From: Acetobacteraceae bacterium B3987
GTDB lineage: Bacteria; Pseudomonadota; Alphaproteobacteria; Acetobacterales; Acetobacteraceae
Reading direction: 5' to 3'
Assembly (NCBI GenBank): GCA_026537415.1
Contig: JAFNMF010000001.1
Span: 62,610-126,609 of the forward strand
Length of the DNA: 64,000 nt
Shown here: positions 11,184 through 53,357 of the stretch, one piece after another
Layout of the letters: every line of letters starts with the position of its first letter
Position numbering within the stretch: the stretch's first letter is position 1
Notes under the pieces: model-generated
Told to the model about the DNA's origin: nothing
What the model saw: only the letters and a program-made list of their open reading frames with translations
Databases searched by the model: none
Position numbers and translations under genes: made by a program

Positions 11184-12695
11184 TTACCTTTGTTCCTGAA
11201 GAGTAAAGCCACCAAGCAGCTGGCGCAGCTGGCGTGTCCGCTGTGCCATGTTGGAGATTGCCGCAGAGGTCTGCTCCACCATAGCGGCATTTTCTCGCGT
11301 GCCCTGATCGATGGTGACGACTGCCCCGTTGACATCCCGTAGGGCCGATGCCTGCTCGGACGTTGCTTTGGAGATTTCTTTGAGGTGCGTACCGATATTG
11401 GCCACGCTAGAGATGATGGTGTCGATGGCGCCGCTGGCGTCCTTCATGATGGTGGACCCGGAGCTGACGTGAGTCTGGGATGTGGTGATGAGGTCTTTGA
11501 CCTCCTCGGAGGCATCACCGACCCGATTGGCCAGTTTGCGGATTTCTTGTGCCAGAACACGGAAGCCACTGCCTGCCTCACCAGCATGGGCGGCTTCTAC
11601 GCCGGTATTGAGGGCCAGAAGATTGGTCTGTGTGGCGATATTGGAGATGACGTTTGTGATCTTGTTCACGGCTTCGGCAGAGCGTTCAATCTCTTCCATG
11701 GCTGTGCTGGCACGGCGGATCATGGTCCCAAACTGTTCGGTGATGGTTTGACATTCCTCTACGAACTGGGTCGCTTCGCTGACACGGGCCTCGGTGGAGG
11801 AGACCGTGGCTGTGATCTGCTCTACAGCGGCGGCTGTTTTCTCAACGGAAGCTGCCTGCCGTTCCGTGCGCTGGGCGAGGTCCTGGGCAGCACTGTTGAT
11901 TTCATCAGCTGTATTGTCGATGCTTTCCGTAGCTTCGCTGATAGCATGGAGCGTCTGGCAAAGTGATGATATGGCGCGGTTGAGATTATCCCGCATGGGG
12001 AGGTAGGTTTTGGGGAACTCCCCATCTACCGTGTGGGAGAGATTCTTGTTGGCAAGGGCATCAATGATGCGGCCGAATCGTTCCGTAACAAACTGACGCT
12101 CTTGTTCGATAGCCTCATCAAGTTTGTTCATCTCTTCTTTATTGAGCTTCTTGGCTTCGTCAATATAGATGGAAATGGTGAGGTCCATGTCCAAAAAGAC
12201 TGCTTTACAGAGGCTGCTGAGTGATTCTGTTATCTTAGAGAAAGCCATTTTGGGCGGCAGGAGTGGTGCCGGGGGGGCTAGCTGAGCTGTAACATCTCTG
12301 ATGATGGAGGCCAGTAGAAGGGCATAGCCACCAATATACCAGCGTGGGTCCAGTCCAATTTTGGCATGGGTACGACCGATCTGGCGGACGGTGTTGACAT
12401 ATTGTAGGCCGAAAGTGGCTGATGAAATATTTTTCCAATAAGTAAGCTGCGCCCGTTTGGCTTTTTGCATTTGTGCTTCTGAATTAAAGAAGACTCTGGT
12501 TTGTGGTTCTTGGCGGACCGTATTGTAAAATGCATCAAGGGCTTTGGGCAGGCATCTGTTAACGTATTTTTCAATACGGCGTATAGCTAGGCAGTCCTGC
12601 TCCCCCAGTTGGAGAAAATGCAGCCGGGATTTCAGTTCTTCAGTATCCTCAAAGCTTTCTTTTGGATTAGTCATGATTGCTGAAAATTTAGACAT
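11184..12695 (-). CDS. Globin-coupled methyl-accepting chemotaxis protein (HemAT-like)
   Basis: A 503-residue soluble chemoreceptor with no membrane segment. Residues about 25-175 form a protoglobin sensor; GRTHAKIGLDPRWYIGGY contains the likely proximal haem ligand His110, matching the HemAT pattern. A linker leads to the signalling domain, whose hairpin tip reads SNIATQTNLLALNTGVEAAH followed by GEAGSGFRVLAQEIRKLA. In HemAT proteins oxygen binding to haem controls CheA through CheW. ATG 12695 has GGGGAT just upstream; ATG 12713 has no ribosome site. No other chemotaxis gene is in the window. The 274 bases up to ureD are AT-rich and must hold divergent promoters, but I could not fix boxes there. 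Confidence 0.9.
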   Translation of the reverse strand: MSKFSAIMTNPKESFEDTEELKSRLHFLQLGEQDCLAIRRIEKYVNRCLPKALDAFYNTVRQEPQTRVFFNSEAQMQKAKRAQLTYWKNISSATFGLQYVNTVRQIGRTHAKIGLDPRWYIGGYALLLASIIRDVTAQLAPPAPLLPPKMAFSKITESLSSLCKAVFLDMDLTISIYIDEAKKLNKEEMNKLDEAIEQERQFVTERFGRIIDALANKNLSHTVDGEFPKTYLPMRDNLNRAISSLCQTLHAISEATESIDNTADEINSAAQDLAQRTERQAASVEKTAAAVEQITATVSSTEARVSEATQFVEECQTITEQFGTMIRRASTAMEEIERSAEAVNKITNVISNIATQTNLLALNTGVEAAHAGEAGSGFRVLAQEIRKLANRVGDASEEVKDLITTSQTHVSSGSTIMKDASGAIDTIISSVANIGTHLKEISKATSEQASALRDVNGAVVTIDQGTRENAAMVEQTSAAISNMAQRTRQLRQLLGGFTLQEQR

Positions 12696-12969
12696 GCTAT
12701 CCCCGTTAAACATTATTTAGTAGGTGGCTGGTCATGATCGACCAAGATCTTTTGAAGCCCCTATTTCTAATAATATGGTTACTAGGAAATTAAATATGAT
12801 ATGAAATTAGTGTGCTTAACCTTGATTAATATTATTAATAGTACCCATTTATATTTATTAATTATTACGTATCCTTTCATTTTCTTGGGGTATGTCTGGA
12901 TGGTCTCTGCCCTGATATGTTGTTGTTATACTTGGTTATAAAAGGAATGATGGGTGGGGGAGCGTGGCG

Positions 12970-13815
12970 ATGAGTGTAAGTGGGGAGATGGCATTGCCTC
13001 TGCAACGGGCCGAAGGTGCCTTTACGCTCAGTGCCCGTATCCGGGAGGGACAGACACGGCGGGGTATTTTGCGGCAGGGCGGATGCAGCCGGCTGCTTTT
13101 CCCCCGGCGTGATGGGGTCCAGCTTGAAGCCGTGATGGTCAACATTTCCGGTGGGCTGGCAGCGGGGGACCAGTTACGGGGCGAGGTATGGTGTGAGGAG
13201 GGTGCCGAGCTGCTCATGAGCAGCCAAGGGCATGAGCGTGTCTATCGTGCCCGCCCGGAAGACCCGCCTGCCATAATTCGGACGACCTGTCATCTGGCCC
13301 CTCAGTCCCGGCTGGAATGGCTGCCCCACGGGACCATCTTCTTCAATGGTGCCCAGCTGGAACGCTTCATGACGGTGGAGATGGCAGGAACGGCCAGTTT
13401 TCTTTTTTATGAAAGCCGTATTCTGGGTCGTCATGGCTCCGGGGAACAGCTGCAACAGCTGCATCTGCGGGACAGGCTGAGCATCAGGCGGGATGGTCGT
13501 CCTGTTCTGGAGGACAGCACGATCATGACGGGGGATGGCCTGCATGAGTTTCTCCAGCAGGCCCCGGTTGCGGATGGGGCCTGCGTGGATACCATGCTTG
13601 TTCTGGTGGACAGGGACGCAGAGAATTATCTGCCCCGGCTGCGTCCTCTGCTGGAGGATGTGGGGCCGGAGGCTTCTTTTGCGGCATCCTGCTGGGATGG
13701 CAAACTCATCATCAGGGGGCTGGCCCGCAATAACTGGGTGGTTGAATCCCTCATGCACCGGATTCTGCCCTGTCTTCGGGCAGGCCGGAGGCTTCCCACA
13801 GGCTGGCGTATTTAG
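12970..13815 (+). CDS. ureD: Urease accessory protein UreD
   Basis: First gene of the urease cluster; with UreF and UreG it forms the complex that loads nickel into apo-urease. The 281-residue protein shows family blocks [54 protein letters not shown] and [16 protein letters not shown]. The ATG at 12970 is preferred to GTG 12964, with GGTGGGGGAG just upstream. Fifty-two bases separate it from ureA. Confidence 0.93.
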
Positions 13816-16222: not shown

Positions 16223-16767
16223 TGAAACATGTTGTCGATATCCTGCCAGCAGGTCGCTGGAACAAGGCAGATGCCGCTGATGTTTTCGTGGCGGATTATG
16301 AAGGGCGGCACAGGCGGCGCATTGTTCTCTCCCTGAAAAGCGGGGAGCGTGTCCTGCTGGAGCTGAAAGAGGCCCGCCTGCTCAATGAAGGGGAAGGGCT
16401 GGTTCTGGATGATGGCCGCATCATCCGGGTGGAGGCCCTGCCGGAAGCTCTCATGGAAGTCACGGCCCATTCGGCCCTGCATCTGCTCCAGCTGGCGTGG
16501 CATCTGGGCAACCGGCATCTGCCTGCCATGATAGAGGAAAAGCGGATTCTGGTACGGCAGGATGCCGTGATCGCCGATATGCTCGCCGGGCTGGGGGCGC
16601 ATGTGCATCTCTGTGAGGCGCCTTTCTCGCCAGAAAGCGGGGCCTATGCAGGGCGTGGCGGACATGACCATGCTCACAGCCACAGCCACAGCCACAGCCA
16701 CAGCCACAGCCACAGCCACAGCCACAGCCACAGCCACAGCCACAGCCACAGCCACGAGGCCGGATGA
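16222..16767 (+). CDS. ureE: Urease nickel metallochaperone UreE with long His-Ser tail
   Basis: A 181-residue nickel carrier that hands metal to the UreDFG complex. The N-terminal domain spans about residues 1-75; the metal-binding domain contains HLLQLAWHLGNRHLPAMIEE with the conserved dimer-interface histidine. The C-terminal tail is HDHA, then 13 consecutive His-Ser pairs and HEAG, so about 16 histidines in 34 residues. His-rich UreE tails are known in Klebsiella and store nickel; a perfect dipeptide repeat of this length is unusual. The tail comes from a simple DNA repeat. The stop overlaps the ureF start. Confidence 0.95.
   Translation: MKHVVDILPAGRWNKADAADVFVADYEGRHRRRIVLSLKSGERVLLELKEARLLNEGEGLVLDDGRIIRVEALPEALMEVTAHSALHLLQLAWHLGNRHLPAMIEEKRILVRQDAVIADMLAGLGAHVHLCEAPFSPESGAYAGRGGHDHAHSHSHSHSHSHSHSHSHSHSHSHSHSHEAG
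16675..16752 (+). repeat. (CACAGC)13 hexanucleotide microsatellite inside ureE
   Basis: Thirteen perfect head-to-tail copies of CACAGC (78 bases) encode the His-Ser tail. Because the unit is six bases, gain or loss of copies keeps the frame and changes only tail length. Confidence 0.98.
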
Positions 16768-39188: not shown

Positions 39189-40715
39189 ATGGCGGTGAGG
39201 GTGCAGAAACTGCTTTATGCAGTAGCAATGTCAGCTGGTGTTCTTGCTGTCCCTAAGGCCTATGCTGATATTTCTTTGTTCTCTCGCAAGGATATTACTA
39301 TCAACGCCGCCCTCGATATCGGGGGCGATGCGTTTTATTTTCCCAATGCCAATTTTGGTACCGGCTCCTACGAACCGCACAAGTCGGGTTACTCACGCAC
39401 AAAAAATGTGACCCTTGCTGAGTTATATGGTCAGCCCATGCTTTCTGGAACATGGCAAACCCCGTGGGGTTTTTCGGTGTTTGGGCTGGTGTCTGCCATT
39501 GGGTCTACGACATTGGGGGATGGGGATGCGGAAAGCATAAGCCAGACCTCTGGTACGCCCCGGCAGGTGAATCTTGAAGACGCTAATTTGGGCGTGAAGA
39601 TACCCCTTAATGGGAAAAGACGGCTGATTATTGAGGGGGGGCGGCAGAAGTTCCAGATTGATGATGGCTTCCTTATGGGGAAGGGAGCCTATAGTTCGGG
39701 GGAACGTGGCGCATGGTGGTATGCGCCTCGTTTTGCCTTCTCCGGGCCGGGTGTCATTAAATATGAAGGGCAGTCCATCCGGTCGGACATCTTCATGCTG
39801 GAGAATAACAGTAACAACCGGCAGACTTATGGTAATGATAAGCCGGAAACAAAGTTTGTTGGGTTTGATGTCACCCTTTTCCGCAGCAAACCGGATGGAG
39901 ATGGTGGAAGTACCTATGGGGACAGAGCGGCTTATGTCACGCTGACCTATTTCTATGTTCGCCACGCCGATAAGGGGGCAGCTTATGACTACTCCAACAG
40001 GGCGGACAGGCAGGGGATGAGTGTGACAGCTCTAAGCTGGGGCGGCACACCATTTGCTATGAAGAACCATCCTTTTACAAAGAATGTCACTTTCTACGGC
40101 AATTTTGTTTCGGAGCAGAACAGTCACGCAGGCAATGGTTATAAGGGTGTCAGTGCTTATGCTGTGTATGTGGAGCCGGGCTATACATTCGCCCACTTGC
40201 CATGGCGACCGCATGTTTTCTACCGCTACACTCGTTTCAGTGGTGGGAAGGACCTTCATAGCCGGACGAAGCATAATTACGACACGTTCTTTCTCTATGA
40301 TGGTGCCCGGTACACGTATGGTGGGTATTGGCCGGGTGAAATCGTGGGGAATAATATGTCGCCACTCTCCAATATGGAGGTTCAGCAGTTTGATATTACC
40401 GGGGTGCCGCCTGTCCATCTTCTGAAGAAGGATGATGAGCTGAAGCTAGGCCTGCATTTTTATGATCTTGCCTATCTCTACCCTACCGGGGCTGGTCTCC
40501 CGGCAGGAACGAAGCGGCATATGTCAGATGAGGTCAATATTTCAGCAGAATATGCCCTTGATGCGAATACGTCTGGTGCGATTGCTGCTGGGGCGGCTTT
40601 TTCTGGTCCAGGAGGGCGGGCTTTGGCAAAGGCCGGTGTGCCAGATGGGCAGGTCATGCCGAGGGTACATGGTGCTTCTGGTGTGTTGGAAATCTATTTT
40701 TATAAACATTTCTGA
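39189..40715 (+). CDS. Outer-membrane beta-barrel protein, tandem copy 1
   Basis: A 508-residue precursor with a Sec signal peptide (KLLYAVAMSAGVLAVPKAYA, cleavage after about residue 26). The mature part is rich in alternating aromatic and polar residues and ends in Phe (IYFYKHF), the classical C-terminal signal of outer-membrane barrels. Blocks such as GGRQKFQIDDGFLMGKGAYS, YEPGYTF-like VEPGYTFAHLPW, YRYTRFSGG and LKLGLHFYDLAYLYPTG are shared with the next gene. Overall it resembles substrate-specific porins, possibly alginate-export-like; substrate unknown. Start has AAAGGACGG upstream. Confidence 0.75.
   Translation: MAVRVQKLLYAVAMSAGVLAVPKAYADISLFSRKDITINAALDIGGDAFYFPNANFGTGSYEPHKSGYSRTKNVTLAELYGQPMLSGTWQTPWGFSVFGLVSAIGSTTLGDGDAESISQTSGTPRQVNLEDANLGVKIPLNGKRRLIIEGGRQKFQIDDGFLMGKGAYSSGERGAWWYAPRFAFSGPGVIKYEGQSIRSDIFMLENNSNNRQTYGNDKPETKFVGFDVTLFRSKPDGDGGSTYGDRAAYVTLTYFYVRHADKGAAYDYSNRADRQGMSVTALSWGGTPFAMKNHPFTKNVTFYGNFVSEQNSHAGNGYKGVSAYAVYVEPGYTFAHLPWRPHVFYRYTRFSGGKDLHSRTKHNYDTFFLYDGARYTYGGYWPGEIVGNNMSPLSNMEVQQFDITGVPPVHLLKKDDELKLGLHFYDLAYLYPTGAGLPAGTKRHMSDEVNISAEYALDANTSGAIAAGAAFSGPGGRALAKAGVPDGQVMPRVHGASGVLEIYFYKHF
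39625..39673 (+). repeat. 49-base block identical to 41405-41453, copy 1
   Basis: Identical DNA in both outer-membrane protein genes, including a run of seven G at 39635-39641, encoding the IIEGGRQKFQIDDGF region. Nucleotide identity here exceeds that of the flanks, suggesting gene conversion. Confidence 0.85.
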
Positions 40716-40965: not shown

Positions 40966-42495
40966 ATGTCATCAAAAATGCGGAAGCTCTTCGTTTCGTT
41001 GGCCGCTTTAGGCAACGTCTATGCGATTTCTGATGCTTATGCTGACCAGACACTTGTTTCTACCAAGAATATTTCGATCAAGGCCTCCCTTGATATTGGG
41101 GGAGATGCGTTCTTTCTGCCGAATACTAATTATGGCACAGGTTCTTATCGTGAGCGGCGGTCAGGTGGTTATGCCTTGATTCAGGATACGACCTACGCCG
41201 AGCTGTATGGAAAACCCATCATTGCTGGGCAGTGGAAAACCCCGTGGGGATTCACTGTGTTCGGTCAGGCTTCAGCCATTGGGTCCACGACTTTGGGTGA
41301 TGGTGATGCTGAGAGTGTATCCCAGACCACACGGACCCCTCGTGCCGTTACGCTGGAGGAAGCTAATCTGGGAATAGATTTGCCTTTCAATAGCGAAAGA
41401 AAGTTGATTATTGAGGGGGGGCGGCAGAAGTTCCAGATTGATGATGGCTTCCTAGTGGGGAAAGGGGCTTATAGTTCCGGTGATCGTGGTGCGTGGTGGT
41501 ATGCGCCCCGGTTTGCTTTTTCCGGGCCGGGTGTCATCAAGTATCAGGGTAAGAAGCTTCGTGCAGATGTCTTTATGTTGGAGAATAATACCAACAACAA
41601 GCAGAACCGGAATTATGATCGCCCAGAGACCAAGTTTGAAGGGTTTGACATCACATGGTTCCGTAGCAAACCGGGTGGGGATGGTGGCTCTTCCTATGAG
41701 GATAGGGCAGCTTATTTGACGCTGGCGTATTTCCATGTGCGAAAGGCGAATATCGGTGCCGCTTTTGATTACGCCAATCGTGGTGACCGTCAGGGCATGA
41801 ACGTAACCCAGCTGGGTTGGGGCGGTACATTCGTGCCGATCAAGGCACTAGGTATTTCGAAAAATTTTACCCTCTACGGCACCTTCGTTTCCGAGCAGAA
41901 TAGCCATGCTGGGAATGGGTATAAAGGGGTCAGTGCTTATGCGACCTACATAGAGCCGGGCTACACATTTACCACCCTGCCGTGGAAACCTCATATCTTC
42001 TACCGTTATACCCGTTTCAGTGGGGGGAAGAACCCGCAGAGCCGGACAAAGCATAATTATGATACGTACTTTCTGTACGATGGCCGCCGGTACACATATG
42101 GCGGGTTCTGGCCGGGAGAGATTACGGGTATGTATCTCTCTCCACTCTCCAACATGGAAGTGCATCAGGTGGATTTGACGGGTGTTCCGCCTGTTCATCT
42201 GCTACGAAAAGAGGATGAGTTGAAGCTGGGTCTGCATTTCTACGACCTGTCTTTTCTCTACCCTACGGGTTCCGGGCTTCCGAGTAATGTTGGAAGCCAT
42301 ATGTCGGATGAGCTTGATTTCTCTGCAGAATACACGTTTGATGGTAATACATCGGGAGCGATTACCGGTGGTGTCGCTTTTGCGGGGCCAGCGGGGAAAG
42401 CACTGGCGAAGTCGGGTGTACCAAGTGGTATGGATATTCCGCCTATCCACGGCACATCTGGCGTGCTGGAGCTGTATTTTTATCGTCATTTCTAA
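40966..42495 (+). CDS. Outer-membrane beta-barrel protein, tandem copy 2
   Basis: A 509-residue paralogue of the preceding gene with the same length, signal peptide (FVSLAALGNVYAISDAYA), block order and terminal Phe (LYFYRHF). Differences cluster in putative loops. The 250 bases between the copies are AT-rich with several A runs and no gene, and probably carry a separate promoter. The second copy may have a different substrate or expression condition. It is followed by a hairpin and then an amino acid permease gene. Confidence 0.75.
   Translation: MSSKMRKLFVSLAALGNVYAISDAYADQTLVSTKNISIKASLDIGGDAFFLPNTNYGTGSYRERRSGGYALIQDTTYAELYGKPIIAGQWKTPWGFTVFGQASAIGSTTLGDGDAESVSQTTRTPRAVTLEEANLGIDLPFNSERKLIIEGGRQKFQIDDGFLVGKGAYSSGDRGAWWYAPRFAFSGPGVIKYQGKKLRADVFMLENNTNNKQNRNYDRPETKFEGFDITWFRSKPGGDGGSSYEDRAAYLTLAYFHVRKANIGAAFDYANRGDRQGMNVTQLGWGGTFVPIKALGISKNFTLYGTFVSEQNSHAGNGYKGVSAYATYIEPGYTFTTLPWKPHIFYRYTRFSGGKNPQSRTKHNYDTYFLYDGRRYTYGGFWPGEITGMYLSPLSNMEVHQVDLTGVPPVHLLRKEDELKLGLHFYDLSFLYPTGSGLPSNVGSHMSDELDFSAEYTFDGNTSGAITGGVAFAGPAGKALAKSGVPSGMDIPPIHGTSGVLELYFYRHF
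41405..41453 (+). repeat. 49-base block identical to 39625-39673, copy 2
   Basis: Second copy of the shared block, with the seven-G run at 41415-41421, 1780 bases downstream of copy 1. Confidence 0.85.
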
Positions 42496-44046: not shown

Positions 44047-44095
44047 TCCTGATGGGGGAGGCCAAGTCCTCTCCTAGAGAGATTGATCTTTGAGA

Positions 44096-44131
44096 AGAAC
44101 GGATCTGCTCGTCAGGTCCGTTCTTTTTTTT
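44096..44131 (+). terminator. Rho-independent terminator of the AAT permease
   Basis: AGAACGGATCTG and CAGGTCCGTTCT pair over 12 positions with one G-T pair and a five-base loop, followed by eight T. Confidence 0.9.
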
Positions 44132-44156
44132 GTGTTCGATTAATTAAGAAAATCGT

Positions 44157-44585
44157 TCACCCAAGGGAGACCAGTATGGCTCCCAGTCCGATGAATATGA
44201 TGCCCAACCATCCTTTGACAGAAAGTTGCTCTCCCAACAGCGTAACGCTGAGAATGGCAACGAAAACAACGCTCAACTTGTCGAGCGGGGCCACACGGGC
44301 GGCATCCCCCATTTTGAGCGCACGGAAATAACATAGCCACGAAGCTCCTGTTGCCAGACCAGAGAGCAGCAGGAATAGGCAGGCTCGAGGGTTAAAACCT
44401 TCGGTGTTATGGAACTTGCCTGTTACCAGTAGGATCGTCCCCAGCACGCCAAGAATGACTAGTGTGCGGATGAAGGTGGCAAGGTCGGAGTCAATAGTGC
44501 TGACGCCTATCTTGGCGCAAAGGGCTGTTAGTGCTGCAAAAATAGCTGAAAGCAACGCCCAGAAAATCCATGAGGAAGAAAGCAT
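44157..44585 (-). CDS. Single-domain EamA/DMT-family transporter
   Basis: A 142-residue protein with five membrane helices equal to one EamA half (WALLSAIFAALTALCAKIG at the start, AARVAPLDKLSVVFVAILS and LLGEQLSVKGWLGIIFIGLG at the end). Full DMT exporters have ten helices; half-size members work as dimers. GAAAGGCC precedes the start on its strand. It is the last ordinary GC-rich gene before the AT-rich island. Confidence 0.85.
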   Translation of the reverse strand: MLSSSWIFWALLSAIFAALTALCAKIGVSTIDSDLATFIRTLVILGVLGTILLVTGKFHNTEGFNPRACLFLLLSGLATGASWLCYFRALKMGDAARVAPLDKLSVVFVAILSVTLLGEQLSVKGWLGIIFIGLGAILVSLG

Positions 44586-45045
44586 GATGATGTGGCCTTT
44601 CTTACAGTTTTAATGATTCCAGATGGGTAAGTTATCGTGGAGGGGCTAGCATGTTTTCCGGTTGGTGTGATGGGATATTGATGGACATAAATTATATTGA
44701 TTGAAATGGTCACCTCGTGGTGTTCTGTAAATATATAGGTTATTTTAAATGAGATAGATGGAGGGCATCTTAATGTTGGTTTGTTTTTAATAGAATTAAG
44801 ATATTTTATTGAATATTGGCCTCTGTAACACTAAGGAGATGAATTGAGGAGAGGATGCGAGGCAAGCCTTCTCTATAGCAAGGTGAGCATCATTTAATTT
44901 GCTACTGCTTAGCGTTGCTCGTGTAGGTTTATACCCCTGCTTAGCTACTATTTTGAAGCAGCCTTTGGAAAAGTGTATATTTCAAGAGTAATATACTATA
45001 TAATCATTGGTGAAACTTTATAAAAGCCTTCTTGGGGGTAAATTG
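44586..45045. other. AT-rich spacer with a start-less open frame (possible gene remnant)
   Basis: No intact gene is seen. On the minus strand 44796-44981 is open for 61 codons but has no start codon. It reads NIHFSKGCFKIVAKQGYKPT, continues through RATLSSSKLNDAHLAIEKAC, and ends at TAA. I do not recognise it. It may be the tail of a decayed gene downstream of the SIR2 gene, or chance. Confidence 0.35.
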
Positions 45046-48000
45046 CTAGAGTTGGCTTTGTCGACAGTATTCTTTGAGACGCTTATACTGTTTATCCTCT
45101 GCTAGGGTTGGTGCAGATTGGACGATTTTTTCTAAACAATTTTCTACATGTTGGTTATGAAGGGTAGGACCATTAATTATGGAGTTTAAAAAGGTTAGTG
45201 TATCCTTCGGAAACTTATTACAGAATTCGGCCTCCTGCAAAGGAATAAAATCTATATAACTAACGGGCTGCAACCAGTCTTTCATTAGGCGGAGAGCATT
45301 AGGAAATTCATCTCGTGTAGCGATCACTAATTGCGCTAAATATATTGAGATTTTTTCATCCACTAAATCTAGAGATTTTGGCCATATGTTTTTCCAGAAT
45401 GGCTGTATTCGATGTTTCCAATATTCTTCGGCCTGTTCACCGGCTCCCTTTATAGCCTTGATTAAGGCAGAAGCAACTTTTTCTAATCCTTGTTGGGGTA
45501 ATGCCTTAAACGCAGATCGGAATTCATTGGTGGTATATCCTTCATTTATGTCTAATGCTGAATAGGTCAAGAAGGTAGCAAACTCCTGAGCGCTTGACCC
45601 TAGATCGTTATAATGTTTAGCAGTATCTAAAAAGTCTTTTTTAAAAGCCCGTAGTAGGGGAGAGTATAGGCGTGGAGACAAAAGAAATCCTGTCCACGCT
45701 GCTTTTGCCACTTCATGATTTGCCTCCCAGTCGAGCATGGGCAATAGATGTTGTTTACTCCATTTAGGATCAATACGAAAAAATGCGACCAAATGAGAGC
45801 ATAGAATAACGCGACCATAGCAGAATATATCAGCGTTAGTATTACATAATTTAGCAAACAATGGAGTAATGTCTTTAGGAATTTTGTCATTATCATTAGG
45901 TTTTCTATGGAACAATATTTTAAGAATAGCCTCTGTAATATGTCCAATATAATGATCAAAAGATTCTATTATATAATCATGCGGAAGTGTAAAATTGCTT
46001 TTGCTATGAGTGTTTTCTAAATTTATAAAACGCATACATAGTTTTAATATAACATTTTCGTCTTTGGAGGGAAAATTGGCCACAACCATTAGCCAATAGG
46101 CAATCTCTTGTCTTAGGTCAAATAGCACTTTATCAGGCATCTTTTGCACAAGTGGTATGACAAATTTCCATGAATGCCGCGCCATGCTTTGGGTGTTCCA
46201 AGCTTGGAGCGCATGTTTCCAACGTAATATTGGCCAGCTATTCTGATTTGCTATAGCAGACAATGCGCGTAGGCAAAGAGCGAAACGTGTTCGGCAGACA
46301 TTATACCACTCATCATTATATAAGTGATTATTTTCAGGAGAGGGGTGGTCAAGCCATCGAATGAGTGCATTTAGTTCTCGAGGTACAGGAGTAATATAGC
46401 GCTTTATTACCTCTTTAAAATCTGGATCGTTAGGACTATTCATCCACATTCCGAATTCATCTCTCTCGTCAGGGGCTAACTGCCATTCAGGATATTGCTG
46501 CGATAATTTTTTCAGCTGCTTGGCGCTTGCACTTCCAAGGACCAACCCTGAGGATTGAAGCTTGGCCAGACGTAGCCAAATGTCCCGATCTTTGATGTCA
46601 GGACGGTTTTCTATGTTTATGGTTTTGAATATAGATTGTGGTGGGCCTGATAAAATGGCAGTTTCAAGATCTTCTTGTGAAGAAGAAGACAATTTACGGC
46701 CCTGCAACACAAGTAAGCGTAAAACTTCCCGTTTTATATTGCCAGACCAAAGCCAAAATGCATCATCTGCAAGTAGCCATTTTACCCATTGTTCGGGAGT
46801 AATCTTTTCCTCTTGGCTGGCTGCATATAATGCAAGACGTTTGAAGGTGAGATATGGGAGATCAAACCATCTCTTGGCAATTTGTATTGCATAATCGATA
46901 TTTTTCTTACGTATCGTCAGCCAGGTATCTCGTACTAACTCAATTAACAGCACCCATTCATGGAAATTTCTGTTTTGTGGATGAGGAATAATGGAAGGAA
47001 TATCAATGAAAGATTTGTCGTTGCGATCATCTGCTGCATTTAAGTCACGTTGAAGATCTAGGGCATCACGCAATAATATTTGAAAATCATCTAGTAGATA
47101 TACAAAATTTCCTAATCCTATTAATTTAGGTAATGAAGAAAGTATATTCTGGTCTGAGACCCCTGTATTAAAGACAAAGTTATATTCAAGTTTGATGTTT
47201 TTGGACTGTGATTGACTTTGCTTAGATAATACTAGAGATATGATGTTTTTTCTTAATTCTATTTTAATTGACAGTAATTCACGTAACTCTTGTCGGATAC
47301 TTGCCGTTAATCCATGAAGTTTGACTCGTTTTGTCCACTGAAAAAATCTAGGTGTATAGCCCGATGTTTTAAGCTGCCCGGCACATATTATACTCCACAG
47401 TATCTGCATCTCAGGGCAAGGAATAGCATTTGGGGCAGATCTACGAATATCATCGAGTTTATTGGTGTCTTTTTCAATTTCTAATTTTTTTAAATATTCT
47501 AAACGATTTTCAATTATCATTTTGAAATTTTCAGATAATTGTCCCCCTTGTTCATAAATCCATAAAACCAATCGTGAATCATTCAAATAATTATCTGCTA
47601 GCCATTCTGCAAGATGAGACATTATTTTATCATATTGTATAAGAGATCTTCCTTTACCTGCCAACTGCATGTTAGATAAAAAACAACGTGGAGACGGACG
47701 GTTGATTAAACTGAATGGTTGTGAGGAATCACCTTTATTTTCAATATGTAATGGAATGCCAGATCGTTTAAGATCGGAATAGTTATGGTTTTCTTTGGAA
47801 AACACTTCAAGAAGCCATTCTAATGGGGGCGTTGGCTGAAAGGTTGCAAAACATTTTGCTGGTTGGCCTGATGGATCAGACATGGCCCACAGCATTCGGC
47901 CTATGTAATCATCTTGTTGCGTACTTGCCGATGGGTGAGCCAAAGCGTACTGAGTGACAATACTTTCTGCGCCGGTGCTACCAGCTTGGTACGTATCTCC

Positions 48001-48873
48001 CCAAGCCTTCAATGTGTTATGTAATTTTGAATGATCATGCGATCCTGCTTTTACATGATATAAAATTGGCGTGACGCCTTTTGCCTTCCACTCGTTACTT
48101 TTGTATTCTTCTTCTCCGGGCTCGCAATCGCCGAATGCCCAAGTCTGTAGTATATCTTCCCCCAATATTTGATCTGCTGCCAGTGCGTCCATCATATAAC
48201 GCAATGTTGGGTCGTTAAGGCTATATCCTATGAAACATATTACGTAGTTGCGGAATAACTCGCCGACAAAACGTGCTGCCCAGCCTTCAGAGAGATAGGC
48301 AAGTCCAAAATCACCACTGGAAATAATTAAATTATTTAATTCGGATTCGCTTAATTTTTTTTCAGGTAAACGTCCATGCAAATAAACCAATCCATCCCAA
48401 CGGCTTCTTTTAGGAATAGGCAAAAGTGGTGCTGCATAATATTTAATTTTCTGTTTGTTACGTTTGGCGGCGCTATGAAATATATGATCGAAATTTGTAG
48501 TGACCAATCGTAAATCGCCCTTACGATTCTGTCCTAATTTTAACAGTGCAGTATGTGTGTCGGTAGCACTTCTTCGGCGCAAATTTGGCTTTAATATCTC
48601 TGCGAGTTTTTCTCGAACACACCGGCGTTGCCCGGGTATACGCTTTTCGAGTAAGTGCAAAACAGTATCGTAGTGCCCTTGTTCAAAAGATTCCCTTTCT
48701 AATTTCTCAAAAACGGTGTCACAACGGTTATAAATTTCCTCCACTAACCCTTTGAAACCTGGTAAGCCGGCGGGGTAGGAAATACCTGCCCCACAAAAAA
48801 ATATCACACGTCCTTCTTCATGTGCTTGCAACAATGCATTAGGGATATCAGGGCCATTCGTAATAAACTGCAT
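45046..48873 (-). CDS. Large SIR2-domain protein, probable anti-phage defence-associated sirtuin (DSR type)
   Basis: A 1275-residue cytosolic protein. Residues about 1-290 form a SIR2-like NAD-binding domain: FFCGAGISYPAGLPGF (GAGIS 28-32), LVTTNFDHIF (Asn127), LVYLHGRLPE (His166) and VICFIGYSLNDPTLRYMMDA. Asn127 and His166 match the NADase pair of bacterial defence sirtuins. The remaining ~950 residues are mostly helical without nuclease or helicase motifs, as in DSR1/DSR2-type proteins, where this part senses phage proteins and activates NAD depletion. Length fits the DSR1 (DUF4020) group better than the ~1000-residue DSR2. The gene is much AT-richer than its neighbours, has its own TATAAT box and AAAGGA site, and stands alone, all signs of recent transfer. 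Assignment to a subtype needs a profile search. Confidence 0.75.
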   Translation of the reverse strand: MQFITNGPDIPNALLQAHEEGRVIFFCGAGISYPAGLPGFKGLVEEIYNRCDTVFEKLERESFEQGHYDTVLHLLEKRIPGQRRCVREKLAEILKPNLRRRSATDTHTALLKLGQNRKGDLRLVTTNFDHIFHSAAKRNKQKIKYYAAPLLPIPKRSRWDGLVYLHGRLPEKKLSESELNNLIISSGDFGLAYLSEGWAARFVGELFRNYVICFIGYSLNDPTLRYMMDALAADQILGEDILQTWAFGDCEPGEEEYKSNEWKAKGVTPILYHVKAGSHDHSKLHNTLKAWGDTYQAGSTGAESIVTQYALAHPSASTQQDDYIGRMLWAMSDPSGQPAKCFATFQPTPPLEWLLEVFSKENHNYSDLKRSGIPLHIENKGDSSQPFSLINRPSPRCFLSNMQLAGKGRSLIQYDKIMSHLAEWLADNYLNDSRLVLWIYEQGGQLSENFKMIIENRLEYLKKLEIEKDTNKLDDIRRSAPNAIPCPEMQILWSIICAGQLKTSGYTPRFFQWTKRVKLHGLTASIRQELRELLSIKIELRKNIISLVLSKQSQSQSKNIKLEYNFVFNTGVSDQNILSSLPKLIGLGNFVYLLDDFQILLRDALDLQRDLNAADDRNDKSFIDIPSIIPHPQNRNFHEWVLLIELVRDTWLTIRKKNIDYAIQIAKRWFDLPYLTFKRLALYAASQEEKITPEQWVKWLLADDAFWLWSGNIKREVLRLLVLQGRKLSSSSQEDLETAILSGPPQSIFKTINIENRPDIKDRDIWLRLAKLQSSGLVLGSASAKQLKKLSQQYPEWQLAPDERDEFGMWMNSPNDPDFKEVIKRYITPVPRELNALIRWLDHPSPENNHLYNDEWYNVCRTRFALCLRALSAIANQNSWPILRWKHALQAWNTQSMARHSWKFVIPLVQKMPDKVLFDLRQEIAYWLMVVANFPSKDENVILKLCMRFINLENTHSKSNFTLPHDYIIESFDHYIGHITEAILKILFHRKPNDNDKIPKDITPLFAKLCNTNADIFCYGRVILCSHLVAFFRIDPKWSKQHLLPMLDWEANHEVAKAAWTGFLLSPRLYSPLLRAFKKDFLDTAKHYNDLGSSAQEFATFLTYSALDINEGYTTNEFRSAFKALPQQGLEKVASALIKAIKGAGEQAEEYWKHRIQPFWKNIWPKSLDLVDEKISIYLAQLVIATRDEFPNALRLMKDWLQPVSYIDFIPLQEAEFCNKFPKDTLTFLNSIINGPTLHNQHVENCLEKIVQSAPTLAEDKQYKRLKEYCRQSQL

Positions 48874-48894
48874 AAAATTATCCTTTTGTAATAG

Positions 48895-48900
48895 ATTATA
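48895..48900 (-). promoter_or_regulatory. -10 box TATAAT of the SIR2 gene
   Basis: A perfect TATAAT on the minus strand lies 22 bases upstream of the start codon, predicting a leader of about 15 bases. No good -35 element was found at 16-18 bases distance, so activation or weak basal expression is possible. Confidence 0.45.
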
Positions 48901-48923
48901 TTTTTCATAATATGAATGAAATG

Positions 48924-48935
48924 TCTATCGATAGA
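48924..48935. promoter_or_regulatory. Perfect 12-base palindrome in the SIR2-gene promoter
   Basis: TCTATCGATAGA is self-complementary and extends imperfectly by AT/AT on the outside. It lies about 25 bases upstream of the TATAAT box, a position suited to an operator. No regulator is encoded next to it. Confidence 0.35.
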
Positions 48936-49350
48936 TATGAGGAGAGCAGAGCTTGGTTTGAATTTAGGCTACGGAATTAATCCATTGAATGAGCATAATT
49001 TCTCCTGCGAGGATGCGGATTTGTTGACCTTCTTCGTTATTGTTAAGTAGTGAGGGGTGTTAGCTCACGCTTGGTTAGACCAATATCACCCAGTGTTAGA
49101 GGGATAGCCTTTACGTTTCTTTGTGCCTTGATTGAGGAAAAGATGACAATCCGCTATATTATTAGCATTTCTTGTAGGATTGTAGAGGATTAAGTGTCTT
49201 GAATTTAGCTTTGCTAAGGTGGTTATTGAGTTTTTAGGGTGGCGGGTAGTATTTTAGGAGAGGCAGAAGAATTTCTCGACTTGATCAGGTCTTAAAAGGC
49301 ATTCTCACATATATACGGTGAGGAATGATAAAAATTTAGGAGAAAATCCG

Positions 49351-49427
49351 TGGTGGACCCGGCGCGATTCGAACGCGCGACCTTTGCCTTCGGAGGGCAA
49401 CGCTCTATCCAGCTGAGCTACGGGTCC
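49351..49427 (-). tRNA. tRNA-Arg (anticodon CCG)
   Basis: On the minus strand a complete 77-base cloverleaf: acceptor GGACCCG pairing with CGGGTCC, D arm with AGCTCAGCTGGATAGAGC, anticodon stem TTGCC/GGCAA around loop CTCCGAA giving anticodon CCG, T arm with GTTCGAATC, and an encoded CCA end. It reads the arginine codon CGG. It separates the AT-rich SIR2 island from the conserved polA region; tRNA genes are common integration sites. Confidence 0.97.
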
Positions 49428-49498
49428 CCGTTGGGGGTTCTTTTAACGGGAAGGAGCCCTTTTGCCTAGCCCTTGATGCACTCTTTTTTCCATTCTGT

Positions 49499-50533
49499 TC
49501 AGCGTGTTTGTTCCAGCCAGAGCCACATAGTGGCGGCACTATCCCCGCCAGAGGGTAGAAAATGGTTCGGTTGTTCAATCCATGAGATGATGTCTTTGGC
49601 TGGCCGGTCATGTGGCTCACGGGTGATGAGGTGATAACCGCGGGGTAACTCATCCAGTCGGAAGAGGTCTTTAGGCGTTCGTTGAATAAGGCGGCGTGTA
49701 GCAGAGGCCGGAACAAACTGGTCCTGGTCGCCCCAGATGAACAGGGTTGGTGTCTGCACGGAGGGCACGGCCTCCAGCGCATGGCTCATCAGATGCGTCA
49801 GCCCCCGTAGGGCGTGAACGGTCGTGCCGTGGCGGGTCAGCGGGTCGAAGAACATGCGGCGTAAGGCTCGGATATTGCCTGTGGCGACATGATGCCCCGG
49901 CATATGCGCACCCGTCAGTCGTGCCTGCGGAGTGATGAGGTTCCAGCCTTCGAGAAGGGTCTGCCACGGCTCACCAATCGACATGATGGCCGGGGCCAGA
50001 AGAATCAGACCGTCAGGGCGGGGCGCGGGTAGGCTCGTGCTGGTCAGGAGGGCAATGGCACCGCCCATGCTTTCCCCCATCAGATAGAGGGGCTGGCCGG
50101 GCCAGTGTTGCTGGCACCAGCGGGCTTCCTCCACGGCATCGGCAATCATGCGGTTGGTCGAGCTCCAGTTTCCCTTGACCGGAAACTCTCCAAAACTCCG
50201 AACATCCGGTGCTACGATAAGAAAGCCCGCTCTGTTCAGAGGTGGTGCCATGTTTTCCCAAGCATCCCGGCTGTCCCCGAAGCCATGAAAGGCCAGAATG
50301 ACACCTCGAAGAGGGGCCGTTGCCGGATAAAGCCGGACTGGAGCCCGCTTGCCATCGGAAAGAGCAATCTGCGTGTTGGCAGGGACGAAGGCCGCTTCGG
50401 CGGGGCGGTGGGGCAAAGTCTGGGGTGCCGGTAGAGTCTGGCACCCTCCGAGCAGGGCCATGAACAGAAATAGAGCCGTGCTGAAGCAGGAGCCGTTTTT
50501 AAAACGTCGGAAATCGGCTAGAGAAGAAAGCAT
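49499..50533 (-). CDS. Alpha/beta-hydrolase lipoprotein (monoacylglycerol lipase/lysophospholipase-like)
   Basis: A 344-residue lipoprotein precursor: signal ALFLFMALLGGC with the lipobox LGGC at residues 28-31, then a hydrolase domain with oxyanion region ILAFHGFGDSRDAWE, nucleophile elbow GESMGGAIAL, acid IWGDQDQFVP and a histidine in PRGYHLITRE. This is the serine hydrolase_4 type, acting on monoacylglycerol or lysophospholipid; the protein would be anchored in the envelope. Start 50533 places the signal peptide correctly; it lies 43 bases from the divergent polA start. The substrate is not known. Confidence 0.85.
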   Translation of the reverse strand: MLSSLADFRRFKNGSCFSTALFLFMALLGGCQTLPAPQTLPHRPAEAAFVPANTQIALSDGKRAPVRLYPATAPLRGVILAFHGFGDSRDAWENMAPPLNRAGFLIVAPDVRSFGEFPVKGNWSSTNRMIADAVEEARWCQQHWPGQPLYLMGESMGGAIALLTSTSLPAPRPDGLILLAPAIMSIGEPWQTLLEGWNLITPQARLTGAHMPGHHVATGNIRALRRMFFDPLTRHGTTVHALRGLTHLMSHALEAVPSVQTPTLFIWGDQDQFVPASATRRLIQRTPKDLFRLDELPRGYHLITREPHDRPAKDIISWIEQPNHFLPSGGDSAATMWLWLEQTR

Positions 50534-50576
50534 CTGCAAGACTGATCTGCCAGCATGGGCAGGGGAGAAAGACGGC

Positions 50577-53357
50577 GTGACGTCAGAAAACACACATCTG
50601 GTTCTGGTGGATGGTTCGGGGTTCATTTTCCGTGCCTTCTTTGCCATTCGCCACATGAGTAATCCGGAGGGTGTACCCGTCAATGCCGTTTACGGCTTCA
50701 CCAACATGCTCATGCAGCTCATGAGAGAGCATGAAGGTCAGCCGATGGCCGTGATTTTCGATGCTGGCCGCAAGACATTCCGTAACGATATTTACCCCGA
50801 TTATAAAGCCCATCGTCCAGAACCACCGGAAGACTTACGGCCTCAGTTTGATCTTATTCGTCAGGCAACGGATAAGTTTGGTATTCCAGCCATTGAACTG
50901 CCGGGCTGGGAAGCAGATGACCTTCTGGCAACTTATGCCCGTCTGGTTGTGGAGCAGGGTGGTAGCTGTACCATCATTTCCTCCGATAAGGACCTGATGC
51001 AGCTCATCCGTCCCGGCGTTTTCTTGAAAGACCCGATGAAGCAGAAGCCCATCGGCCTTGCCGAGGTTGAGGCTAAATTCGGCGTGACACCAGATAAGGT
51101 GGTGGATGTGCAGGCCCTCATGGGGGACTCCACCGATAATGTGCCGGGCGTACCGGGTATCGGCCCCAAAGGGGCGGCCCAGCTCATCAATGAATATGGA
51201 TCGCTGGAGGCTGTTCTGGCAGCGGCTCCCAGCATGAAGGCTTCCAAGAGGCGTCAGAACCTGATTGACCATGCCGAAGGGGCACGTATTTCCCGTCAGT
51301 TGGTAGTTCTGGCGGATGATGTGGCTGTGCCTGTTCCCGTGGATGAACTACGCCCCCGTGAACCTGATGCCGAAACACTACGGAGCTGGCTGGAGAGCAT
51401 GGGCTTTTCGTCTATCCTTCAGCGTATGGGCTTCGGGGGTAAGGCCCGCCATCCAGCACAGCGCAAGCCCGATGCCAGCCCAGCTTCTGCATCAGCAGAG
51501 GAGCAGGAAGCGGGAGATATTCCTCGCAGTGATGCGCCTTTTGGTCCCTATGAGACCGTGACCGATAGGGAGACGCTGGCTCAGTGGATTGAGGCGGCCC
51601 GTGCCGCAGGGCGTGTTGCCGTGGATACGGAAACAACTGGCCTGAATGCTCGCACGGCGGAGATTGTTGGTCTGTCTCTGGCCGTAGCTCCGGGGAAAGC
51701 GTGTTATGTGCCGTTCCGTCATGAGGGCACGTTGGAAGCCCCCGTGGGCGAACAGCTAGACGTAAAGGATACGCTGGAGCAGCTTGCTTCGTTGATGGCC
51801 GATGATGCGGTGCTGAAGATTTTCCAGAATGCGAAATATGACCTCACCATTTTAAGGCAAGCCGGTCTGGAGGTCATTGCGCCGCTGGATGACACGATGC
51901 TGCTTTCCTATGCTCAGTCTGCTGGGGCACATGGGCAGGGCATGGATGAACTCTCCCGCTTGCATCTAGATCATACGCCCATCCCTTATGATGAGGTAAC
52001 AGGGACAGGGCGCAACCGCATCCTGTTCACACAGGTGCCGCTAGACAAGGCTACCGCTTATGCGGCTGAAGATGCCGACGTGACGCTGCGTCTTTGGGAG
52101 GTGTTGCGTGTGACCCTTCCTCGTCAGAAGGCTGCGGCCCTGTATGAGGAGATGGAACGCCCGCTTATCACCGTGCTGGAGCGCATGGAAGAAGAAGGTG
52201 TGCGAGTGGATGCCGATGAGCTGCGTCGTCTGTCGGAAGATTTTGCCACCCGCATGGCGGAAATGGAGCAGGGGATTCATGATAGGGCCGGACGGCCTTT
52301 CAACATCGGCTCGCCTAAACAGCTAGGGGAAATCCTGTTTGATGAGATGGGCCTGCCGGGTGGCAAGCGCACCAAAACGGGCGCATGGGGAACGGACTCC
52401 CGTGTTCTGGAGGAGCTGGCCGAGCAGGGCCATGATCTTCCTACGGAAATCCTGAACTGGCGGCGTCTGGCCAAGCTGAAGTCCACCTATGCGGATGCGC
52501 TGCTCAAGCTGATGGACCCGAAAACTCAGCGTGTTCATACGACTTTCCAGATGACAACCACGACCACGGGGCGTCTTTCCTCCAATGAGCCAAACCTCCA
52601 GAACATCCCTATCCGTACGGAGGAAGGGGCACGCATCCGTCAGGCTTTCGTAGCCGCACCGGGGCATAAGCTGCTTTCTGCCGATTATAGCCAGATCGAG
52701 CTACGCCTTTTGGCTCATGTGGCGCAGATTGAACCGCTGTTGGATGCGTTCCGTCATGGGCAGGATATTCATGCCCGCACGGCTTCCGAGGTGTTCGGCA
52801 TCCCGCTGGAAGAAATGGACCCGCTGACAAGGCGGCGGGCTAAGGCCATCAATTTCGGTATCATCTATGGCATTTCGGCCTTTGGGCTGGCCCGGCAGCT
52901 TCAGGTGCCGCAGGGGGAAGCCAAACGCTATATTGATGCCTATTTTGAACGCTATCCCGGCATCCGGGACTATATGGAACGGATGAAGGAAGAAGCTCGG
53001 GAGAAGGGCTATGTGCTGACCCCCTTCGGTCGTCGCTGTTATGTACCGGGCATCAAGGCCCGTCAGGCGGCGCAGCGGTCTTATGCCGAGCGTCAGGCCA
53101 TCAATGCGCCTCTACAGGGTGGAGCGGCCGACATCATTAAGAAAGCAATGGTTCGTCTGCCAGAGAGGCTGGCTGAGGCCGGGTTGAAGGCTCGGATGCT
53201 GCTTCAGGTGCATGACGAACTTCTTTTTGAGGTCTCGGATGACGAGGCCGACAAGACGGCAGCCCTTGTAAAAGAGGTTATGGAATCCGTAGCCACATTG
53301 GATGTTGCTCTGTCCGTGGAGACAGGACTTGGCCAGAACTGGGGTGAGGCTCACTGA
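50577..53357 (+). CDS. polA: DNA polymerase I
   Basis: A 926-residue repair and Okazaki-fragment polymerase. Domains: 5'-3' exonuclease (1 to about 290, with VLVDGSGFIFRAFFA, GWEADDLLAT and GDSTDNVPGVPGIGPKGA), proofreading exonuclease with intact Asp350 and Glu352 (VAVDTETTGLN), and polymerase with motif A Asp703 (LLSADYSQIELRLLAH), motif B RRAKAINFGIIYG and motif C Asp880 (LQVHDELLFEV). All three activities appear intact. GTG 50577 is chosen because GGGGAG at 50562-50567 is ideally spaced and the family N terminus begins just after it. Confidence 0.96.
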   Translation: MTSENTHLVLVDGSGFIFRAFFAIRHMSNPEGVPVNAVYGFTNMLMQLMREHEGQPMAVIFDAGRKTFRNDIYPDYKAHRPEPPEDLRPQFDLIRQATDKFGIPAIELPGWEADDLLATYARLVVEQGGSCTIISSDKDLMQLIRPGVFLKDPMKQKPIGLAEVEAKFGVTPDKVVDVQALMGDSTDNVPGVPGIGPKGAAQLINEYGSLEAVLAAAPSMKASKRRQNLIDHAEGARISRQLVVLADDVAVPVPVDELRPREPDAETLRSWLESMGFSSILQRMGFGGKARHPAQRKPDASPASASAEEQEAGDIPRSDAPFGPYETVTDRETLAQWIEAARAAGRVAVDTETTGLNARTAEIVGLSLAVAPGKACYVPFRHEGTLEAPVGEQLDVKDTLEQLASLMADDAVLKIFQNAKYDLTILRQAGLEVIAPLDDTMLLSYAQSAGAHGQGMDELSRLHLDHTPIPYDEVTGTGRNRILFTQVPLDKATAYAAEDADVTLRLWEVLRVTLPRQKAAALYEEMERPLITVLERMEEEGVRVDADELRRLSEDFATRMAEMEQGIHDRAGRPFNIGSPKQLGEILFDEMGLPGGKRTKTGAWGTDSRVLEELAEQGHDLPTEILNWRRLAKLKSTYADALLKLMDPKTQRVHTTFQMTTTTTGRLSSNEPNLQNIPIRTEEGARIRQAFVAAPGHKLLSADYSQIELRLLAHVAQIEPLLDAFRHGQDIHARTASEVFGIPLEEMDPLTRRRAKAINFGIIYGISAFGLARQLQVPQGEAKRYIDAYFERYPGIRDYMERMKEEAREKGYVLTPFGRRCYVPGIKARQAAQRSYAERQAINAPLQGGAADIIKKAMVRLPERLAEAGLKARMLLQVHDELLFEVSDDEADKTAALVKEVMESVATLDVALSVETGLGQNWGEAH

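Follow-up and report, generated by a model that had tools for sequence, protein, structure and literature searches.

What is the large gene that stands alone in an AT-rich part of the chromosome of Acetobacteraceae bacterium B3987, and how might it have arrived there? The question is raised by a 64,000-nucleotide stretch of that genome (contig JAFNMF010000001.1, positions 62,610 to 126,609; hereafter the window, with positions counted from its first letter). An earlier note on the window, made from its letters alone, had singled out a 1275-residue open reading frame (ORF) at 45046-48873 and had proposed for it the plan of a defence-associated sirtuin. The ORF proves to be intact: a single frame on the minus strand with an ATG start and no internal stop. 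Its start methionine is common to all 14 rows of one alignment of relatives (A1), whose row starts were fixed by annotation or by model match. The SIR2 motifs that had been picked out there are all found at the places named, GAGIS at residues 28-32, TTNFD at 125-129 (with Asn127), YLHG at 164-167 (with His166) and GYSLNDP at 216-222, and these residue numbers match the column lists of the Dsr1 alignments discussed below.

The sirtuin plan was right at the level of family. The protein matches the NCBIfam equivalog model NF041818.1, whose name is 'anti-phage defense-associated sirtuin Dsr1', with 1701.7 bits against a cut-off of 1400, residues 1-1271 lying on model positions 1-1263. The PADLOC Dsr1 model PDLC02183 is matched with 1714.7 bits over residues 1-1273 and a second Dsr1 model with 561 bits over residues 1-1270; a third scores 65.8 bits and covers at best residues 4-296. 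Dsr1 models appear among the PADLOC and NCBIfam matches of the protein, and no Dsr2 model does. A Pfam search finds SIR2_2 alone (residues 123-270, 76.7 bits). Searches with an alignment profile bring up DSR2-length SIR2 chains only at E-values of 0.51-0.67, over positions 18-51. By its sequence, then, the gene clearly belongs, as a new and intact member, to the established Dsr1 family, and we refer to it as dsr1. It resembles other Dsr1 in the near-full-length match, in length (1275 residues; the models have 1263 and 1275 positions), in the SIR2 motifs, in the sensor and in being a solitary gene. It differs in its identity of about 52% to the nearest relatives, its AT-richness and its site between an EamA-family gene and tRNA-Arg(ccg) in a 2.04-Mb genome.

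These matches bear directly on whether the protein might instead be a SIR2 enzyme that serves some purpose outside phage defence, such as keeping plasmids out or deacylating proteins. One SIR2-associated Argonaute system is active against both plasmid and phage DNA (PMC11290490), and there are weak matches to NCBIfam deacylase models of the CobB type (E 0.017-0.23). However, the latter reach only 10.7-14.1 bits against cut-offs of 221-320, whereas Dsr1 is followed over the whole length, and we consider such a task highly improbable.

For the two parts of the protein we placed the domain boundary at residues 290/291, a choice of our own made from the alignment and the structural model. The N-terminal part (residues 1-290, 48004-48873, minus strand) is a predicted SIR2 NADase domain, as indicated by Pfam SIR2_2, by invariant positions and by the model. 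The remainder (residues 291-1275 plus stop, 45046-48003, minus strand) is a predicted helical solenoid and presumed phage sensor, as judged from the model, Foldseek and conservation among Dsr1. When the protein is aligned with 93 relatives, its identity to the nearest Dsr1 proteins is 51-52% overall, rising to 68-70% in residues 1-290 and falling to 46-47% in residues 291-1275, so that the C-terminal part does resemble a DSR group. Among the 20 of these 93 rows that were listed, overall identity lies between 51.9% and 40.5%, apart from three remote rows from viral contigs, which reach 22-25%; over residues 291-1275 the corresponding figures are 35.9-46.9% and 17.5-20.9%. The earlier note had found no familiar motif in the sensor and had suggested that it might detect a new trigger. 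This idea did not survive: residues 291-1275 can be aligned over their whole extent with other Dsr1 proteins, so that we see an ordinary Dsr1 sensor with no mark of a special trigger, and the reading of it as unusual was rejected.

Fifteen Dsr1 proteins share 228 invariant positions out of 1275, of which 97 lie in residues 1-290 and 131 across the remainder. Asn127 (codon 48493-48495, minus strand) is a predicted catalytic or NAD-binding residue comparable with N133 of DSR2, and His166 (codon 48376-48378, minus strand) a predicted catalytic residue comparable with H171. Both are kept in all 94 aligned rows, a count to be read with the selection in mind since genome rows were chosen by patterns with FFCGAG or WAARFV and viral rows by FFCGAG or TTNFD, making such letters non-independent.

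Not every relative entered these comparisons. From 25 distinct loci examined, 14 went into the 15-protein and 94-row alignments and 11 were omitted (L005, L006, L009, L010, L048, L064, L065, L070, L072, L074 and L075), their start being uncertain, their frame broken or partial, or their identity low. Two of them, L064 and L065, are of full length yet share just 28% and 25% identity with the protein of the window, and the range of the family is therefore wider than the identities quoted above. In the 15-protein alignment row L002 begins upstream of its likely start. The big alignment omits nine of 88 relative loci in which the matched stretch contains a stop or has a length that is not a multiple of three, together with three incomplete genome loci (L133, L156 and L159) and 10 of 21 viral loci.

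Structure prediction with AlphaFold2 used alignments (A2 and A3) of 36 and 34 of 101 fetched loci. Residues 1-1200 were modelled with a mean predicted local distance difference test score (pLDDT) of 84.7 and a predicted template modelling score (pTM) of 0.56 from 37 alignment rows, and residues 291-1275 with a mean pLDDT of 83.6 and pTM of 0.50 from 35 rows. The models show a mixed α/β N-terminal domain and a remainder that is almost all helix. When the 1-1200 model was compared with solved structures by Foldseek, DSR2 chains took ranks 1-22 (best E 1.2e-9, template modelling (TM) scores 0.21/0.25), and ThsA and KomC followed after rank 22, interspersed with more DSR2 rows. The best solved match is thus DSR2 of Bacillus subtilis (PDB 8wy8, 8z18 and others), which likewise has an N-terminal SIR2 domain and a long helical C-terminal part. 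It is a shorter protein (1005 residues versus 1275) and the sequence match to it is negligible (profile E 0.51-0.67); by sequence, no PDB chain was matched beyond a short SIR2-type match. The SIR2 fold of ThsA, from Thoeris, and of KomC is alike, with TM-scores by target length of 0.40-0.44 and 0.65-0.68, respectively. Neither is known to combine this domain with a solenoid sensor in one polypeptide. KomC differs in acting in a KomBC complex, according to PDB titles, and ThsA detects cyclic ADP-ribose molecules via a SLOG domain (PMC10973363). Searched alone, the sensor finds HEAT/ARM-type proteins best, karyopherins for example, with 12 matches at E ≤ 0.001 and TM-scores by query length of 0.13-0.23.

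How the protein would work can be pictured from its better studied counterpart. In DSR2, binding of a phage tail tube protein to the C-terminal part is followed by opening of the SIR2 pocket and cleavage of NAD+ (PMC10973363, PMC11087589, PMC10981675); the catalytic pair N133/H171 is conserved in DSR1 (PMC11087589), which has been presented as a further single-gene system that work on DSR2 may illuminate, its activity being ascribed to the SIR2 domain (PMC10973363). We think it very probable that the window gene encodes a canonical Dsr1 and forms an anti-phage system on its own, combining a SIR2 NADase with a HEAT-like sensor. Residues 1-290 would form the NADase, inactive at rest, and residues 291-1275 the HEAT-like helical solenoid serving as sensor. 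On binding a phage protein produced during infection the sensor would cause the SIR2 pocket to open, and the open pocket would cleave NAD+ and so halt phage production. That the protein cleaves NAD+, protects against phage and is switched on by a phage protein is expected by analogy with the Dsr1 family and DSR2. No paper on the trigger or the structure of Dsr1 was found when articles were judged by title or by the start of the abstract.

The single-gene reading was also examined through the surroundings of 80 Dsr1 loci, 68 of which have more than 1.5 kb of sequence on a given side. The commonest shared neighbour occurs at 8 of the 80 loci, and there is no recurrent partner. The commonest neighbours (at 5-8 of the 80 loci) look like subunits of restriction-modification systems. 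A partner gene was accordingly rejected for the window, its interval being without one and none recurring at the 80 loci. A tRNA gene lies within 1 kb of Dsr1 at only 4 of the 80, so proximity to tRNA is not a habit of the family.

Alignment-based scans of the genome and viral collections brought up relatives, whereas single-sequence scans of them had found none. At least 473 relatives were found on genome contigs in 590 pattern-matched stretches, of which the best 80 were kept. Among 72,556 plasmid records 62 have a match; in nine of these it spans 80% or more of the query, with a best identity of 50.6%, eight of the nine being annotated as Dsr1 and one lying in an unannotated stretch. One record (L041, NZ_CP134663.1), a 4.9-Mb Escherichia coli 'plasmid' in which the surroundings of Dsr1 are unannotated, is probably a mislabelled chromosome. 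In IMG/VR, 21 of 30 pattern-matched viral-contig stretches encode Dsr1 relatives, with identities of up to 51%, and a collection of 50,697 phage records holds no Dsr1 relative. A viral origin for the gene was rejected, the phage records scanned being without a match; given the IMG/VR relatives at up to 51%, carriage by prophages elsewhere is possible. Close to home the family is rare. Of 299 genomes from the taxonomic family to which the organism belongs, 2 (that of the window included) score above the Dsr1 cut-off and 16 show at least some match at E ≤ 0.001. The corresponding figures above the cut-off, again counting the window's genome, are 2 of 385 in a draw from the class and 10 of 398 in a draw from the phylum.

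A FastTree phylogeny of the 94 rows places the window protein on a long branch, with an odd residue composition, joined weakly (67) to another long branch, and the tool itself flags it as unreliable. Class labels are scattered over the tree: 28 changes, compared with a mean of 31.3 after shuffling, a value as low being reached in 15 of 200 shuffles (30 rows are unclassed). Given this scatter and the weak join, no donor is named.

Four points weigh against the picture of a canonical Dsr1 drawn above. First, a review citing Garb et al. 2022 reports that DSR1 stops phage without cell death, unlike other SIR2 and TIR systems (PMC10952713), so that 'abortive suicide' may misdescribe Dsr1. Second, when the sensor alone was searched with Foldseek, DSR2 was absent from the best 50 of 993 matches. 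Lacking a specific match there, we claim only that the model shares with DSR2 the common plan of SIR2 domain plus helical solenoid, and not the same sensor fold. Third, the TM-scores to DSR2 are low, at 0.18-0.21 by query length; this is expected of a long bent solenoid and leaves a shared sensor fold unproven. Fourth, no relative of more than 52% identity was found among the collections scanned, leaving the protein on its long branch.

The long branch, the odd residue composition and the AT-richness might also befit a Dsr1-family protein whose defence function has been lost, a decaying or domesticated copy that is merely carried. A divergent Dsr1-like gene in the congener G032 has its matches spread over at least two ORFs, and such genes seem to decay in the genus. 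Yet the gene in the window has an unbroken frame of 1275 codons, contains every SIR2 motif listed above and matches the Dsr1 models over nearly its full length, and loss of function appears improbable. The G032 gene, at another site (L062:7593-10987), has its matches in two ORFs of 628 and 444 residues, followed by a 163-residue ORF, and looks interrupted. A further Dsr1-like gene, at L060:7212-10956 in G016 and in the matching part of L061 in G239, occupies two ORFs in different frames with a 77-base overlap; the two copies are 99.85-100% identical and hence not two independent cases.

We now turn from the canonical Dsr1 to the place that it occupies. The departure of base composition from both flanks, already remarked in the earlier note, is borne out: the G+C content (GC) of dsr1 is 39.1%, and 32% at third codon positions, and that of the interval 44603-49350 is 38.6%, as against 56.4% for the remaining window. 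Outside stretches of the same 3828 bases (n = 516) have a mean GC of 56.6% (standard deviation 2.8) and a minimum of 49.7%. The AT-rich island described there is indeed AT-rich, but it extends beyond the gene at 45046-48873, the strain-specific interval being 44603-49350 as defined by the breaks in homology to congeners. In comparisons with ten congeners, homology is lost no later than 44602 and regained at 49338-49351, the 3' end of tRNA-Arg(ccg). The gene is solitary, as had been said: dsr1 is the sole ORF of at least 70 residues kept in the interval once overlaps are removed. The only other 1-kb stretch below 46% GC (in 500-base steps), apart from the interval and its edges, is 12001-13000.

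On the left the interval is anchored by an EamA-family transporter gene (44157-44585, minus strand; Pfam EamA, 89.7 bits), present in all ten congeners and adjoining the variable interval in nine. The right anchor is tRNA-Arg(ccg) (49351-49427, minus strand; ARAGORN, and Rfam RF00005 with 70 bits), also present in all ten. Beyond it lies a conserved alpha/beta hydrolase gene (49499-50683, minus strand; Pfam Hydrolase_4, 131.6 bits), which adjoins the tRNA as a full match in nine of ten congeners and as a partial match in the tenth. The site was compared in all ten congeners retrieved by the search for relatives. In nine the two anchors enclose other cargo and in the tenth (G300) they are no longer adjacent; the contents of the dsr1 interval are absent from all nine with both anchors in place. 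It is most likely that dsr1 arrived by horizontal transfer at a site where congeners hold other, often defence-like, cargo.

This cargo is of several kinds. One copy of each was searched with Pfam and PADLOC, other copies being assigned by evident likeness and, for the HEPN protein, also by 79-95% identity. Three congeners (G301, G273 and G243) have a Type ISP restriction-modification enzyme of 1756-1758 residues (L055, L056 and L057), whose copies differ, by eye, in short blocks of the methylase and specificity parts. An HEPN_LA2681 protein is found in G032 and G211, and in G296 and G299 it accompanies an operon for OprB, an NHL-repeat protein and a DyP peroxidase. G118 and G170 have this operon with no recognised defence gene, judged from the G118 copy (L050:5853-9724). 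The DyP protein has no match in the window's own genome. The alternation of Dsr1, a restriction enzyme and an HEPN RNase-like protein at one site suggests that the interval between EamA and tRNA-Arg(ccg) is a defence-exchange site; the two of nine intervals without a recognised defence gene speak against a site devoted purely to defence. In E. coli, tRNA-associated defence hotspots are known, 18 of 41 hotspots lying within tRNA loci (PMC10121019). No description of the present site was found in the available portions of the literature on Bombella phage defence and prophages (including PMC9147383), and the placing of the host as an acetic acid bacterium near Bombella is a guess from genome size, composition and gene content.

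By what route might such cargo have come? The interval lies exactly at the 3' end of the tRNA, E. coli hotspots often lie in tRNA loci as just noted, and Dsr1 relatives occur in 21 of the 30 IMG/VR stretches; all this would befit the remnant of a larger mobile element at tRNA-Arg (a prophage, satellite or integrative element) of which dsr1 is the surviving cargo. However, the interval contains no further substantial ORF, and so no integrase, and no direct repeat of at least 14 bases links the end of the tRNA with the opposite side within 44050-49500, although shorter or gapped repeats would escape. The 50,697 phage records lack a Dsr1 relative, no integrase was seen among the kept ORFs of the congener intervals (by reading, with Pfam on one copy per kind), and recombination in the flanks fits at least as well. 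We hold a mobile-element remnant to be possible, somewhat short of an even chance; it concerns origin only and is compatible with a canonical Dsr1. Insertion by a tRNA-targeting integrase in particular was set aside as unsupported, with neither a repeat of that length nor a second substantial ORF. Our wider proposal, offered tentatively, is of a defence-exchange site of the genus at which whole one-gene systems (Dsr1, Type ISP and HEPN_LA2681) are swapped without an integrase, probably via flank recombination, the HEPN_LA2681 protein being a phage-defence RNase.

The HEPN_LA2681 protein, of 507-523 residues, is encoded at L049:8017-9585 and in the same interval of L052, L053 and L054. Its HEPN_LA2681 domain is C-terminal (125.8 bits in the L049 copy). 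The four proteins are 79-95% identical, with coding GC of 39-41%, and all have RNSSTH, an instance of the Rx4H motif. According to a survey of HEPN domains the LA2681 family keeps this motif and has fusions to tetratricopeptide repeats (TPR) (PMC3710099). In the copy tested there was no match to a TPR model, and PADLOC assigned it to no family. PF18733 is rare, being found in 2 of 289 genomes of the class draw and in none of 14 controls, and relatives of the HEPN_LA2681 protein occur in 20 plasmid records. These sequence features make it a candidate defence RNase.

Elsewhere in the window, two genes at 39189-40715 and 40966-42495, which we take to be porin-like, form a tandem pair (cross-matches in congeners indicate proteins about 69% alike), and a perfect array of the hexamer CACAGC (13.5 copies) lies at 16675-16755. 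Promoter and terminator scans gave numbers close to the shuffled expectation and were not used as evidence.

With this gene, Dsr1 gains a further example from hosts in which it is rare (2 of 299 genomes of the taxonomic family score above the cut-off, this one included). Dsr1 is less understood than DSR2, and a divergent, intact member helps to reveal which positions of the sensor do not vary. What is mildly new is the location, since related bacteria often have other defence-like genes at that point of the chromosome; it is the site and the HEPN candidate, rather than the sirtuin, that are of interest. The tRNA-Arg site is a practical lead, in that the proteins encoded there in congeners, HEPN_LA2681 above all, become defence candidates open to testing.

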